From a virus, in IMG/VR virus record IMGVR_UViG_3300042691_022274, positions 1-25,529 of that record: a stretch of DNA of 25,529 nt. One strand, written 5' to 3'. Of the stretch, positions 13,333 to 24,175 are shown one piece after another. Within the stretch, counting starts at the first letter, position 1. Each line of letters opens with the position of its first letter. The translations under genes were made by a program, and so were the position numbers. The notes under the pieces are model-generated. The model was not told where the DNA came from. It did no database searches and saw only the letters and a program-made list of their open reading frames with translations.

Positions 13333-14799
13333 ATGAAACTCAAACAACTGATGCTTGCACCTGTTGCTCTGGGAATGGTTGCTCCTGTTGCTGCGAATGC
13401 GGCAGACCTTAACATGGCAGCAGTCAACCAATATTCCTCTGAGCAAGTTACAAGCGTCAATCAACTTTCTGATGTGCAACCCACTGATTGGGCATATCAG
13501 GCACTCAGCAACCTTGTAGAGCGTTATGGTTGCGTTGCTGGTTATGCAAACGGCACCTTTGGTGGTAGTCGTGCAATGACCCGTTATGAGGCAGCAGCAC
13601 TTCTGAATGCTTGTCTTGACCGTGTAACTGAAAATACTGATGAACTCAAGCGTCTTGCTGATGAATTCCGCAATGAGCTCACTACTCTTCAAGGTCGTGT
13701 AGATGGACTGGAGAGCGTTGTTGGTTCTCTTGGAGCAACTCAATTCTCCACCACTACTAAACTGCGTGGTGAAACAAACTTTGTACTCGGTAATGTCGAT
13801 GGTTATCAAGCCAAAGACGGTACTGTAACCCACGCAGCATTTAATTATGATCTGCGCCTGAACCTAGATACTTCGTTTACTGGTCAAGATCTACTTCGCA
13901 CTCGTCTGCGTTCTTCTAACTTTAGTAGCAATCCTTTTGGTTCCAGCTCTTCCCTGTTCAAACTGGATAAGGCAGATAACACCACCAGTGAAGTTGGTAA
14001 CAATGTAGTTATCGACCGTCTGTTCTATCAGTTCCCTGCTTTCAATAACAAAGCAACTCTGACTGCTGGTGCTGCAGTTCGTAACACTGAGATTGCCTGG
14101 GTTCCTTCTGCTTATAAGTCTGGTATTCTTGATTTCTTTGCTGTTGCTGGTACTCCTGGTGTCTATAACAAGGCAACTGGTGCTGGTTTCGGTGTTCAGT
14201 ATGGTAAGAAAGGTCTTGTTGCTGGTGTAAACTACGTTGCTCAAAATGGTAGCGATAGTGAGACTGGTGTATTTGATGAGACTGGTGCTCTGAATACTCT
14301 TACACAAATCGGTTATCGTGGTAAGAACTACGGTGTTGCATTCGGTTATCGTTATGGTACTGAAGGCACTCGTGTTCGCACCTACAACGGTATTGATGGT
14401 GCTTCGGGTACTCTGGTCCCTGGTCAAACCTCCAACGGTTATGCTCTGAACGCATATTGGGAGCCTGAGAAGTCTGGTATTATCCCTGCTATCTCTGCTG
14501 GTTATGGTTGGAACACCGTGAGTGGAACTGCTAGCGATGCTACTGATAGTCAGTCCTGGTTCGCTGGTCTCCAGTGGGCAGATGTATTTGCTAAGGGTAA
14601 CACCGCTGGCGTTGCTGTCGGTCAGGCACCTACTGGCGAAAACCTTGAGAAGTCCACGATGCTTGAGATTTTCTATAAGTATCAAGTGTCTGATAACATC
14701 AGCGTCACCCCTGCTATCTTCTATGCTAGCGATAATCAGCGCCTTGCTGATAACTCCTCTAACTGGGGTGGTGTAGTCCAGACTACCTTCAAGTTCTGA
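13333..14799 (+). CDS. Cyanobacterial-type outer-membrane porin (SLH + OprB-like)
   Basis: This 488-residue protein has the full plan of a cyanobacterial Som/OprB porin. It has a signal peptide (residues 1-23, cleavage after VAANA) and an SLH domain at about 42-98 (LSDVQPTDWAYQAL...CVAGYANGTFGGSRAMTRYEAAALL), which anchors to peptidoglycan-linked polymer. A short coiled coil follows (about 101-132), then a long Gly/Tyr-rich beta-barrel ending in Phe, the signature of outer-membrane assembly. No frameshift is seen. The gene has its own promoter and terminator and is richer in G+C than the cassette before it, suggesting host origin. It may replace host porins, alter uptake, or mask receptors. 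Confidence 0.92.
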   Translation: MKLKQLMLAPVALGMVAPVAANAADLNMAAVNQYSSEQVTSVNQLSDVQPTDWAYQALSNLVERYGCVAGYANGTFGGSRAMTRYEAAALLNACLDRVTENTDELKRLADEFRNELTTLQGRVDGLESVVGSLGATQFSTTTKLRGETNFVLGNVDGYQAKDGTVTHAAFNYDLRLNLDTSFTGQDLLRTRLRSSNFSSNPFGSSSSLFKLDKADNTTSEVGNNVVIDRLFYQFPAFNNKATLTAGAAVRNTEIAWVPSAYKSGILDFFAVAGTPGVYNKATGAGFGVQYGKKGLVAGVNYVAQNGSDSETGVFDETGALNTLTQIGYRGKNYGVAFGYRYGTEGTRVRTYNGIDGASGTLVPGQTSNGYALNAYWEPEKSGIIPAISAGYGWNTVSGTASDATDSQSWFAGLQWADVFAKGNTAGVAVGQAPTGENLEKSTMLEIFYKYQVSDNISVTPAIFYASDNQRLADNSSNWGGVVQTTFKF

Positions 14800-15165: not shown

Positions 15166-15229
15166 GACTTCAGTTGCCTTCTTCGTTCTGTTGGCAGCAT
15201 CCGTAGAAAAACTTTGTGAGACTTACTAA
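15143..15229 (+). CDS. Single-pass membrane micro-protein (28 aa)
   Basis: ATG 15143 to TAA 15227-15229, overlapping the petF start (TAATG). The peptide is one hydrophobic helix (residues 3-20, with a [11 protein letters not shown] core) ending in a short charged tail with one Cys. Its place between hli and petF suggests a thylakoid or inner-membrane role, but it matches no named PSI, PSII or b6f small subunit that I know. It was found by reading the gap directly; coupling to petF is the main support. Confidence 0.5.
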
Positions 15230-15522
15230 TGACCGTTTTTAATGTCACTCTCCAATCCCCTGATGGCACTGAAACTACAATTGAATGTCAAGATGACCAA
15301 TACATTCTTGAAGCAGCAGAAGAAGCAGGGGTAGATCTTCCCTCATCTTGTAAAGCAGGTGCTTGTAGTGCCTGTGCAGGTAAACTTATTTCGGGAACTG
15401 TAGACAATGAAGAACAATCGTTTCTTGATGATGACCAGATTGCTGATGGTTGGGTTCTTACTTGTGTAGCATATCCAACCAGTGATTGTGTAATTCTTAC
15501 TGAGCAGGAAGAAAACCTGTGA
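15229..15522 (+). CDS. petF: Plant-type [2Fe-2S] ferredoxin
   Basis: This 97-residue soluble electron carrier normally takes electrons from photosystem I to FNR and other reductases. The cluster ligands are C41, C46, C49 ([13 protein letters not shown]) and C79 (LTCVAYP), in the usual spacing. The acidic surface patches needed for partner docking are present. In the phage it may redirect photosynthetic electrons to phage-useful reactions such as bilin or nucleotide reduction. It overlaps a membrane micro-gene upstream and a small unknown gene downstream. Confidence 0.95.
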
Positions 15523-16094: not shown

Positions 16095-16622
16095 ATGCGT
16101 AAAGAACAATACGAAGTCCCACAAGTACAATTTGTATTTCGTGAGAATGGGGAATTTGTAACTCGTACCACTTCAGAACTATTCAATGGAAAGCGTGTGG
16201 TCTTGTTTAGTCTGCCTGGTGCTTTCACTCCTACTTGCAGTGCCTATCAGCTTCCTGGATTCGAAGAGAAATACGATGACTTTATTGGTAGTGGCATCGA
16301 CGCTATTTACTGCATCTCTGTTAATGATGGGTTTGTGATGAATGCCTGGGCCCAGGATCAGAACATCAAGAATGTAAAACTCATTCCAGACGGAAATGCA
16401 TATTTCACACGTTCTATGGGTATGCTCGTCAGCAAGTCTAACCTTGGTTTCGGTGATCGCTCTTGGCGTTATGCTGCGGTCGTGGATAACGGAATCATCG
16501 AAAAACTATTCGTTGAGGTGGGGCAACGGGACAACGCAGACACCGACCCTTATGAAGCGACTACTCCAGAAATGGTTCTCGATTATGTAAAATCTACAGT
16601 GCGAGAAACTGTTACTGCTTGA
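16095..16622 (+). CDS. Peroxiredoxin, Prx5-type
   Basis: The start at 16095 is set by GGAGG at 16085-16089, five nt upstream; 175 residues result. The Prx5/redoxin signature SLPGAFTPTCS carries the peroxidatic cysteine C48, and the downstream NDGFVMNAWAQDQ and GDRSWRYAAVVD blocks are typical of the subfamily. It would reduce H2O2 or alkyl peroxides with thiol donors (glutathione or glutaredoxin). As the last gene of the hli-petF unit it fits protection from the oxidative stress of continued photosynthesis in infected cells. Confidence 0.92.
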   Translation: MRKEQYEVPQVQFVFRENGEFVTRTTSELFNGKRVVLFSLPGAFTPTCSAYQLPGFEEKYDDFIGSGIDAIYCISVNDGFVMNAWAQDQNIKNVKLIPDGNAYFTRSMGMLVSKSNLGFGDRSWRYAAVVDNGIIEKLFVEVGQRDNADTDPYEATTPEMVLDYVKSTVRETVTA

Positions 16623-16687: not shown

Positions 16688-17359
16688 ATGACCCTAGATC
16701 TTCATAACTTTTTTAAATTTTATGATGATAGTAATACGAACCATGTATCTGCGGTTCAGTGGTTAGAAGATAATCTTCCCGCTCAATTTTTAGATGATGC
16801 AGAAACAGATTGGATTGGTATGTTCAGAACCAAACCACCAACTCCTGCAGTACTTGATGTTCCATATTTCAATCAAGTAGACAACTATAGAGACGCACAA
16901 AGAACTTGTAACAGTTCATCATGTGCTATGTGTCTTGCTTTCCTCAAGCCAGGTAGCATTAAAGGTGATGATGAATATGTTAAGAAAGTATTTGCCATCG
17001 GTGATACAACCGACCATGCGGTACAGACAAAAGTTCTGTCTGGTTATGGTATTAAATCTCACTTTAGTTATAATCTTAGTTTTAGTGATATTGATAAAAG
17101 CCTTGATAGAGGTAAACCAGTTGTTATTGGCATTCTCCACAGAGGTTCTTTAACTTCGCCCACTGGTGGACACATGTGTGTTGTGATTGGTAAGACTCCA
17201 GATGGTAAAGGATACTATGTCAACGATCCATATGGTTCTCTGAACGATAACTATACTGGTCCTGTGACTAACGGTAAGAAAACGATCTATACCAAAGCAG
17301 TTCTTAAGCACCGCTGGTGTCCAGGAGGAAACGATGGGTGGGGAAGAATCTTCGACTAG
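16688..17359 (+). CDS. C39-like cysteine peptidase with shared N-terminal module
   Basis: This 223-residue protein has residues 1-42 forming a module also found at the start of the lysozyme at 17458 (LHNFFKFYD, then AVQWLEDNLP). The remainder matches the Peptidase_C39-like papain fold: VPYFNQVDNY, catalytic C79 (SSSCAMCLAFL), H162 (TGGHMCVVIG) and D180 (YYVNDPYGS). Such domains cut peptides, including peptidoglycan cross-bridges. The late promoter and the neighbouring lysozyme suggest a role in lysis or in virion-borne cell-wall penetration. Substrate uncertain. Confidence 0.8.
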   Translation: MTLDLHNFFKFYDDSNTNHVSAVQWLEDNLPAQFLDDAETDWIGMFRTKPPTPAVLDVPYFNQVDNYRDAQRTCNSSSCAMCLAFLKPGSIKGDDEYVKKVFAIGDTTDHAVQTKVLSGYGIKSHFSYNLSFSDIDKSLDRGKPVVIGILHRGSLTSPTGGHMCVVIGKTPDGKGYYVNDPYGSLNDNYTGPVTNGKKTIYTKAVLKHRWCPGGNDGWGRIFD

Positions 17360-17480
17360 ATTTAAAGCAAAAATGCTTAAAGTGATTAGAGAACTTACAA
17401 ATCATGGTAAGCATATAGAAGCAAACGAACTTTATCAACGTTATTTCGGAGACAACAATGGCAAGAATAGATCTACATAA
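17334..17480 (+). CDS. Small basic protein nested between two lytic genes (48 aa)
   Basis: ATG 17334 is preceded by a strong ribosome-binding site (AGGAGG, 6 nt upstream) and the frame ends at TAA 17478-17480. It overlaps the peptidase gene by 26 nt and the lysozyme gene by 23 nt, and fills the gap between them. The peptide is basic and probably helical (FKAKMLKVIRELTNHGKHIE, then ANELYQRYFG). No known domain. The excellent ribosome-binding site is the main reason to accept it. Confidence 0.6.
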   Translation: MGGEESSTRFKAKMLKVIRELTNHGKHIEANELYQRYFGDNNGKNRST

Positions 17481-18129
17481 CTTCTTCAAATTCTATGATG
17501 AGAAGAATCCAAACCACGTTAAAGCAGTTCAGTGGTTAGAAGATAACCTCCCAGTCAAATATCTAGAAGATAATATTGATTGGGCGGAGATCTATAGGGG
17601 AAAAAAGAATAGTGCTGCACCGGCATCCGCTCCCGCTGCTGCAGCTCCTGTAACAGGTGGTGATGATGTGCCAATGATGGGATTAAAACTCATCAAAGAG
17701 TTTGAGGGATGTCATCTCAAAGCATACCCCGATCCTCTCACAGGTGGACTCCCAATCACAATTGGTTGGGGATCAACTCGCAAGAAGGATGGTTCACACT
17801 TTAAACTTGGAGATACTCTAACTCAACAGGAAGCAGATGCACTTCTCATTGAGCAGTGTAAAAATGAGTTCCTTCCTGCACTTCGTAAAATCCCACATTG
17901 GAATGAAATGTCAGATGGAAAAAGAGGCGCTCTGCTCAGCTTTGCTTATAATCTTGGTGCCGGTTTTTACGGTGGCGATAACTTTAATACTATTACTAAA
18001 CGCCTGAAGAATAAAGAATGGGATTTAGTTCCCGATGCGCTTTATCTCTACCGCAACCCTGGTTCTAACGTAGAAGCAGGACTAGCACGTAGAAGAAAAG
18101 CAGAAGGTGAAGCTTGGAAAAAAGGTTAA
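17458..18129 (+). CDS. Phage lysozyme (GH24) with N-terminal module
   Basis: This 223-residue endolysin-like muramidase cuts the glycan strands of peptidoglycan. Residues 1-42 repeat the N-terminal module of the peptidase at 16688, followed by an Ala/Pro linker (about 52-66). The GH24 domain starts near 72 with LKLIKEFEGCHLKAYPD. Putative catalytic residues are E83, D92 and T101, corresponding to E11, D20 and T26 of T4 lysozyme. ALLSFAYNLG and GLARRRKAE are typical later motifs. No signal peptide, so it would need a holin or act from the virion. Confidence 0.92.
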   Translation: MARIDLHNFFKFYDEKNPNHVKAVQWLEDNLPVKYLEDNIDWAEIYRGKKNSAAPASAPAAAAPVTGGDDVPMMGLKLIKEFEGCHLKAYPDPLTGGLPITIGWGSTRKKDGSHFKLGDTLTQQEADALLIEQCKNEFLPALRKIPHWNEMSDGKRGALLSFAYNLGAGFYGGDNFNTITKRLKNKEWDLVPDALYLYRNPGSNVEAGLARRRKAEGEAWKKG

Positions 18130-18176
18130 CCTCACACTAGGAACAAATGGAAACACCAAACAAAAAGGAAAAATGT

Positions 18177-18494
18177 ATGAGTACTGTTATTCGTATTGCG
18201 ATTTTGGGTTGGTCTGCCGCTCTTCTTACTGCTAGTTATGCTGGGGCCCTCGCTAAGATGGACCCCACTTTTATTGCTACTGTTTTCACCGCATCTGCTG
18301 CTACCTTTGGTATTAATACATTGAAGAATAAGGGTGATGATGAAGATGAAAAAAAAGAAGAACCACGTAGAGAAGTGGTTGCAGAAGCACCACCAGAACC
18401 ACCAGCACCCGAAGTTGCTGCACCAGAACCAACCCTTGAAGAGAGAGTTGAGGCACTTGAAGAGGGTCAAGTCACACCTCGCACAGGAGCATAA
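18177..18494 (+). CDS. Candidate holin / membrane protein with acidic-proline tail
   Basis: The start at 18177 is preceded by AAGGAAAA; an in-frame ATG at 18147 would add 10 charged residues. The 105-residue product has two hydrophobic segments near the N-terminus (IRIAILGWSAALLTASYAGA and TFIATVFTASAATFGINTL), then a long charged, Pro/Glu-rich cytoplasmic-like tail. Two short helices with a charged tail, directly after a lysozyme gene, are the usual marks of a holin. No family motif confirms it. It could instead be a spanin-like or structural membrane protein. Confidence 0.5.
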   Translation: MSTVIRIAILGWSAALLTASYAGALAKMDPTFIATVFTASAATFGINTLKNKGDDEDEKKEEPRREVVAEAPPEPPAPEVAAPEPTLEERVEALEEGQVTPRTGA

Positions 18495-22837: not shown

Positions 22838-24175
22838 ATGACTGCTACAATTTCACGTCAACGACAATCAAATACTTGGGAACAATTCTGCAACTGGGTT
22901 ACTTCAACCGATAATCGTCTGTATGTCGGTTGGTTCGGAGTCCTTATGATTCCTTGCCTACTTGCTGCTACAACTTGTTTCATCATCGCCTTCATCGGTG
23001 CTCCTCCTGTGGACATTGATGGTATCCGTGAACCCGTTGCTGGTTCACTTATGTATGGAAACAACATCATCTCTGGTGCTGTTATCCCTTCGTCCAATGC
23101 TATTGGACTGCACTTTTACCCAATTTGGGAAGCTGCTTCTCTGGATGAGTGGCTATATAATGGAGGACCTTTCCAACTGGTCGTCTTCCACTTTCTGATC
23201 GGTATCTATGCTTATATGGGTCGTGAGTGGGAACTTTCCTATCGTCTTGGAATGCGTCCTTGGATCTGTGTTGCTTACAGCGCACCTGTTGCTGCTGCTT
23301 CTGCAGTGTTCCTGGTGTATCCTTTTGGTCAAGGTTCTTTCTCTGATGCGATGCCCCTGGGTATCTCTGGTACTTTCAACTACATGCTTGTGTTCCAGGC
23401 AGAACATAACATTCTGATGCACCCCTTCCACATGCTTGGAGTTGCTGGTGTCTTCGGTGGTTCACTGTTCTCTGCGATGCACGGTTCTCTGGTTACTTCT
23501 TCACTGGTTCGTGAAACCACCGAGAATGAGTCACAGAACTACGGTTATAAGTTCGGACAAGAAGAAGAGACATACAACATCGTTGCTGCTCACGGTTATT
23601 TCGGACGCCTTATTTTCCAATATGCTTCCTTTAATAACTCACGTTCGCTGCACTTCTTCCTTGCTGCCTGGCCTGTTGTAGGCATCTGGTTCACCGCTCT
23701 TGGTGTTTCTACGATGGCTTTTAATCTCAACGGTCTGAATTTTAACCAGAGTATTCTGGATAGTCAGAGCCGTGTTGTTAATACCTGGGCTGATGTACTT
23801 AACCGTGCTGGTCTGGGCATGGAGGTAATGCACGAAAGGAACGCTAGATTTGTTGGTGTTCTTGCCTAGTAATAGGCATTAGTAAAATCGGGTTAAACGG
23901 GGAAACTCTCTATGAGACAATCCCGTACCAAGTCAGAAAGGGTTTAAGTTTTCTGAAAGGTCTAACGACTAGGTAGTGAGTCCCAACAATAATCTACCCA
24001 CGAATGCCCGACTCCTTAATAAACATAAGGATGAAGAGATAGTCTGAACTTACTGGCGACAGTAAGAAGTAGAGGATAAAGAACCACTACGATAACACAA
24101 TTGCACAACTTCCCACTTGACCTTGCTGCCGCAGAAGCAACTCCTGTTGCTCTAACTGCTCCCGCAATCGGTTGA
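22838..24175 (+). CDS. psbA: Photosystem II D1 protein (split by an intron)
   Basis: D1 is the core reaction-centre protein of photosystem II that is damaged by light. Phage copies keep photosynthesis running during infection. Exon 1 is 22838-23845 (336 codons) and exon 2 is 24104-24175 ([20 protein letters not shown] to Gly). Together they give 359 residues, the normal length. Joining restores RNA-HNFPLD at the conserved C-terminus, with the metal-cluster region intact. Read without splicing, the frame stops at 23867-23869 with a false seven-residue tail. It has five membrane helices. The promoter and leader lie upstream and a terminator follows. Confidence 0.97.
23846..24103 (+). other. Group I intron in psbA (258 nt)
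   Basis: The 5' exon ends in T (GCT) and the intron ends in G (ATTG), as group I splicing requires. Conserved core pieces are visible: CTAACGACTAGG (R-like) and AAGAGATAGTC (S-like), with a P/Q-like ATCGGG...AAACGGGGAAAC earlier. The intron contains no ORF. The homing endonucleases are encoded downstream of the gene. Confidence 0.9.

Follow-up and report, generated by a model that had tools for sequence, protein, structure and literature searches.

The two neighbouring wall lysins encoded in the DNA analysed here, a stretch of 25.5 kb (25,529 nucleotides; hereafter the window), begin with a common module, and this module recurs beside at least five unrelated catalytic domains in other Synechococcus phages. 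We lean towards the view that the two proteins are soluble endolysins making complementary cuts, each equipped with a shuffled helical wall-targeting domain of Synechococcus phages. The window is a fragment of a Synechococcus T4-like virus, whose closest isolates are DSL-LC02 and DSL-LC03 (Kyanoviridae).

Both lysin reading frames, at positions 16688-17359 and 17458-18129, encode proteins of 223 amino acids (aa). The initial annotation, made from the DNA letters, had claimed that they share an N-terminal module while their catalytic domains are unrelated, and both observations held. The module spans about 50 residues, and 64% of 47 aligned aa are identical between its two copies (E 7.8e-20); copy A lies at 16688..16840 (aa 1-51 of the first protein, profile match E 2.1e-19) and copy B at 17458..17607 (aa 1-50 of the second, E 1.9e-22), and these and the other features of the locus described below are on the plus strand. 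The first protein continues with a C39-like cysteine peptidase domain (16853..17356; PF13529, Peptidase_C39_2, 2.5e-14), in which C74, H162 and D180 are invariant in 37 homologues and, read by motif, would form the catalytic triad. The top Foldseek matches of its model were C39/papain-fold peptidases (E 5e-6), with the pseudomurein endoisopeptidase PeiR at rank 6. In the second protein, an Ala/Pro-rich linker seen in the translation (17608..17676) leads to a GH24 phage lysozyme domain (17677..18126; PF00959, Phage_lysozyme, 1e-21), where E83, D92 and T101 are invariant in 12 homologues and appear by motif to be the Glu/Asp/Thr set of the T4-lysozyme type.

No hydrophobic segment was found in either enzyme, and a canonical holin-released endolysin pair is therefore the simplest reading. 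We infer the endolysin role from the enzyme families, from the lysis annotation in PHROG and from the failure to find such proteins in two virion proteomes (see below). Directly 3' of the GH24 gene, in the window (18147..18494; PF20048, 2.7e-16) as in most loci of its clade, lies a gene for a DUF6450 protein with two hydrophobic segments, which is a possible holin or membrane partner. In this scheme, the C39-type endopeptidase would cut the peptide part of the wall and the GH24 muramidase the glycan part, and the module would keep each enzyme, once released, attached to the peptidoglycan of picocyanobacteria or to a wall-linked polymer.

For the module itself, no match was found in Pfam, NCBIfam or PDB, nor any to a known wall-binding domain in sequence or structure; a Pfam EF-hand match (0.12) and the PDB sequence-profile matches were discarded as chance. 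Modelled alone with AlphaFold2, it is predicted to be a compact helical bundle (pLDDT 89.2, pTM 0.60) with the same helices as in the model of the full-length C39 protein (residues 5-10, 17-29, 32-35 and 41-47). Foldseek and VIA-align searches of PDB returned nothing for the module, 52 residues being short for Foldseek. Against BFVD, and without sequence prompting from lysins, the only standouts in Foldseek were known carriers, namely the ACG-2014f lysozyme (TM 0.84) and C7F4E4 (0.77); the latter, with 408 aa, has the same length as the P-SS2 lysin and is probably that protein. When Kyanoviridae modules alone went into a profile, it retrieved with E values between 1e-4 and 1e-10 the modules of Autographiviridae, S-CREM2, S-H34 and P-SS2, and the top non-lysin ORF among 11,667 appeared at E 13. 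The module subfamilies have a pattern in common (Y-Y, H-Q, A, L-E, W/F, Y-R), of which the terminal Y-R is conserved ahead of the linker. As the divergent 'TDAAKYY' subfamily was brought in by profile iteration, it is linked to the others through the iterated profile and this residue pattern. PHROGs do not split the module out from the enzymes, and no description of it was found in a literature search that covered few subscription journals; we rate it an apparently undescribed accessory domain within the known kind of modular lysins.

Searching phage records with the module alone revealed that many other Synechococcus phage lysins carry it, so it is no oddity of one locus, and every module-bearing gene examined was a wall lysin. 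Its partners are GH24, C39, GH73, YkuD and GH19 domains (the last assigned from matches to PHROG endolysins/chitinases and from weakly scoring Pfam GH19 matches), arranged in twelve or more domain orders across Kyanoviridae, Autographiviridae, several siphoviruses and the S-EIV1 lineage. In most of these orders the module (MOD) comes first: MOD-C39, which is solitary in S-SZBM1, S-CBP2 and S-SRP02 and followed by a module-less GH24 in S-PM2, S-SRM01 and S-CAM7; MOD-GH24 (MedDCM S39-C11 and, with a divergent module, S-CRM01); MOD-GH19 (P60, S-CBP42, S-B28, MedDCM S38-C3, MedDCM S31-C1, and S-CREM2, where it follows a module-less C39); MOD-GH73; MOD-C39-GH24 (fused, in ACG-2014f); MOD-GH73-C39 (S-EIV1, S-CBS1); MOD-GH24-C39; MOD-C39-GH19 (S-H34, ME01); and MOD-YkuD-GH19. 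It is internal in GH73-MOD-C39 (P-SS2, S-CRES2), in the fused GH24-MOD-C39 (S-CREM1, S-CBS2) and in YkuD-MOD-GH19 (B23), and C-terminal, in a divergent form (E 2e-5), in the GH24-MOD order of a second S-EIV1 protein (L499; S-EIV1 73000-75200). One locus bears two tandem copies before a GH19-like domain (L347, 1345-2151). A signal or export role of the module is excluded by the internal and C-terminal copies and by the absence of a hydrophobic segment. The two-gene order of the window was seen in 144 module-seeded loci on IMG/VR contigs, although such counts, obtained from searches seeded with lysins or modules, do not give frequencies; complete phage records gave one profile match each, or two where two lysins bear the module.

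Several of these genes are irregular. In S-CRM01 (L088, 2801-4110), the GH24 gene stops early and its C-terminal part lies in the next, overlapping gene, which runs into YkuD; this looks like a frameshift (real, programmed or due to sequencing) splitting a MOD-GH24-YkuD gene. The 'putative lysin' of S-PM2 (L084, 3662-4172) is annotated with 73 aa, while the open GH24 frame begins far upstream, and S-CAM7 (L090, 4002-4220) has the same short annotation; start-site mis-annotation is likely in both. The lysin frame is also interrupted in two relatives (L018 and L063).

The host range of the module is narrow. Among 50,697 phage records, credible matches came only from Synechococcus or Prochlorococcus phages or uncultured marine phages: in six single-query tblastn searches these alone appeared at E<=1, and matches outside cyanophages appeared only at E 6-8. 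Used by itself as a control query, the GH24 domain matched 660 records, of which some 585 were not Synechococcus; the C39 domain was, like the module, confined to cyanophages (108 records). The module profile found no match in P-SSM2, P-SSP7, Syn5 or Ma-LMM01, so the module is common rather than universal and is not needed for cyanobacterial lysis generally. A scan of bacterial and archaeal genomes gave a single match, a cyanophage MOD-GH24 gene on a contig of a Euryarchaeota MAG (L173, VGTM01000161.1), which is probably a phage contig binned there by contamination. For S-SRP02, a homologue in Cyanobium FACHB-13342 has been reported (PMC8790148).

The initial annotation had named three possible destinations for the module: peptidoglycan, the virion, or the other enzyme. 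Peptidoglycan targeting appears to fit best, judging from the shuffling of the domain and from its host range. A module that moves among unrelated hydrolases, occupies N-terminal, internal or C-terminal positions, is sometimes repeated, and tracks the host rather than the phage family behaves as a targeting domain would. It should be noted, however, that it is missing from some GH24 and C39 lysins (34 adjacent GH24 enzymes, the C39 of S-CREM2), and that the wall-binding domains of Gram-positive systems are usually C-terminal, unlike a module placed ahead of the enzyme. Going one step further, the module may represent an undescribed wall-binding family that is peculiar to picocyanobacterial phages, binds something present in the Synechococcus wall but not in other bacteria, and was repeatedly acquired by unrelated lysins; we give this proposal slightly less than an even chance. 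If it is true, the target of the module would offer a fresh way into the picocyanobacterial envelope, about which little is known. Lysins built from modules, with wall-binding domains that can be exchanged, are familiar above all from Gram-positive phages; here, in phages of Gram-negative-type picocyanobacteria, one unnamed domain sits on at least five enzyme classes in several phage families. It could provide a single name under which to annotate many cyanophage lysins now called 'hypothetical' or given a wrong start, and a short reagent for probing the Synechococcus wall.

Among known systems, N-terminal domains of the PG_binding_1 type, found in Gram-negative phage endolysins such as KZ144, likewise place a small helical domain before the catalytic one; the module differs in having no PF01471 match, in being confined to cyanophages in the searched records and in occurring also at internal and C-terminal positions. 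Small, mobile and sometimes repeated helical lysin domains typify wall-binding modules such as CW_7, which by analogy may suggest a similar role here. The CW_7/Cpl-7 repeats (PF08230) are helical bundles of 37-43 aa, sometimes in tandem, found with several unrelated lysin catalytic domains (PMC5705596). Their helices have 9, 9 and 13 residues, whereas those predicted for the module have 6, 13, 4 and 7, and CW_7 usually forms C-terminal repeats, while the module is usually a single N-terminal or internal copy. The PF08230 profile did not match the module at E<=10, E<=1 or E<=0.05, and no CW_7 chain was among the 60 PDB matches listed. PhaLP records cyanophage endolysins with two enzymatic domains (EAD-EAD, n = 40; PMC8310338), which are probably of one family with the lysins described here in which C39 is fused to GH24 or GH73; it covers catalytic-domain architectures, and no account of the common module or of the split two-gene form was found in it. 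PHROGs treat whole proteins: phrog_3617, the fused ACG-2014f form, has no function assigned, and phrog_10051 includes MOD-C39 behind another domain.

The trees indicate that modules reached GH24 enzymes on at least two occasions, and not from the same source. In the GH24 tree, the clade of the window (12 rows, 100/100) is nested among module-less GH24 enzymes (96/82), and a separate second clade bears a different module subfamily. In the module tree, whose 55 columns are few for 77 rows, the GH24 module of the window is placed within the freshwater C39 modules (99/98), far from the remaining GH24 modules (100/99). The presence of GH24 modules in two distant subfamilies excludes one retained ancestral module, although parsimony counts do not distinguish gain from loss. 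The first acquisition was probably a copy from the adjacent C39 gene. The module offers a case of one domain gained independently by a second enzyme.

Such copying, seen at least twice beside a module-bearing C39, might also be expected of a docking or oligomerisation domain that joins the lysins to each other or to another phage or host lysis protein, and it is in accordance with this idea that the module is a helical bundle and that both neighbouring enzymes bear it in the window clade. We nevertheless find docking rather unlikely. In 37 loci the module-bearing C39 adjoins a GH24 without a module, which argues against obligatory pairing; many phages have a single module copy, and the modules of the second clade are from distant subfamilies. 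The suggestion that the module pairs the two lysins is thus hard to sustain. Less probable still is that the module acts within its own protein, as a regulator or stability domain that holds the lysin in an inactive or a folded state before it is released. The module mostly stands immediately before the catalytic domain, with its conserved Y-R at the junction, but the same module accompanies five folds that are unrelated, also lies between domains and in one case C-terminally, and in the GH24 protein a flexible linker joins it to the enzyme.

Between the two lysin genes lies an ORF for a basic protein of 48 aa (17334..17480; pI 9.6), which had been described initially as nested. The ORF, its basic product and its overlap with both genes were confirmed, but it bridges them instead, sharing 26 nt with the 3' end of the C39 gene and 23 nt with the 5' end of the GH24 gene. 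The ribosome-binding site that had been called excellent is AGGAGG (17323..17328), standing 5 nt 5' of the ATG, within P-G-G codons of the C39 gene. The 48-aa frame is the sole forward frame open in all 38 distinct 98-nt gaps, where its pN/pS is 0.235 against a column-shuffled mean of 0.81 (minimum 0.52), and the lysin-gene gap lengths (98, 101, 107 and 110) all differ by multiples of 3. Of the 47 distinct loci that have the small ORF, 43 carry AGGAGG, as against none of the 21 that lack it, though PGG is encoded in both groups (Fisher 7e-14, the loci not being independent). Taken together, these patterns point to a genuine small phage gene under purifying selection, and to a case of an overlapping gene whose ribosome-binding site is kept via the codon choice of its neighbour.

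This selection, the co-location and overlap with both lysin genes, and the Shine-Dalgarno maintained inside C39 codons would suit a dedicated partner or inhibitor of both lysins, as initially proposed. We find this improbable, however. The ORF is missing from many close relatives that have both enzymes, their lysin genes lying 11-19 nt apart; in DSL-LC02 an unrelated 127-aa protein takes its place; and a 36-aa relative sits amid unrelated small genes, away from lysins, in one genome (G002), with no relative in 13 other phage records. The gene is thus dispensable, and it is by position alone that it is tied to lysin function. In another relative (L160), an insert of about 1.2 kb separates the two lysin genes.

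Lysins do occur in virions of phages, and the module might accordingly direct the enzymes there as entry lysins. We regard this as very improbable, since module-bearing lysins went undetected in two published virion proteomes: although S-CREM2 virions hold two other endolysins (ORF165 and ORF174), ORF168-170 are absent from that proteome of 52 proteins, listed down to one peptide (PMC10665884, Table 3), P-SS2 ORF098 gave 0 peptides in three replicates (PMC2784084, Table 2), and S-CREM1 lists no lysis protein, in a shallow set of 14, all these proteomes being from related phages other than that of the window.

Elsewhere in the window, translations and the annotation of neighbours reveal the usual host-derived cyanophage genes: an SLH-type porin-like gene (13333-14799), ferredoxin (15229-15522), peroxiredoxin (16096-16622) and psbA (22838-23869).
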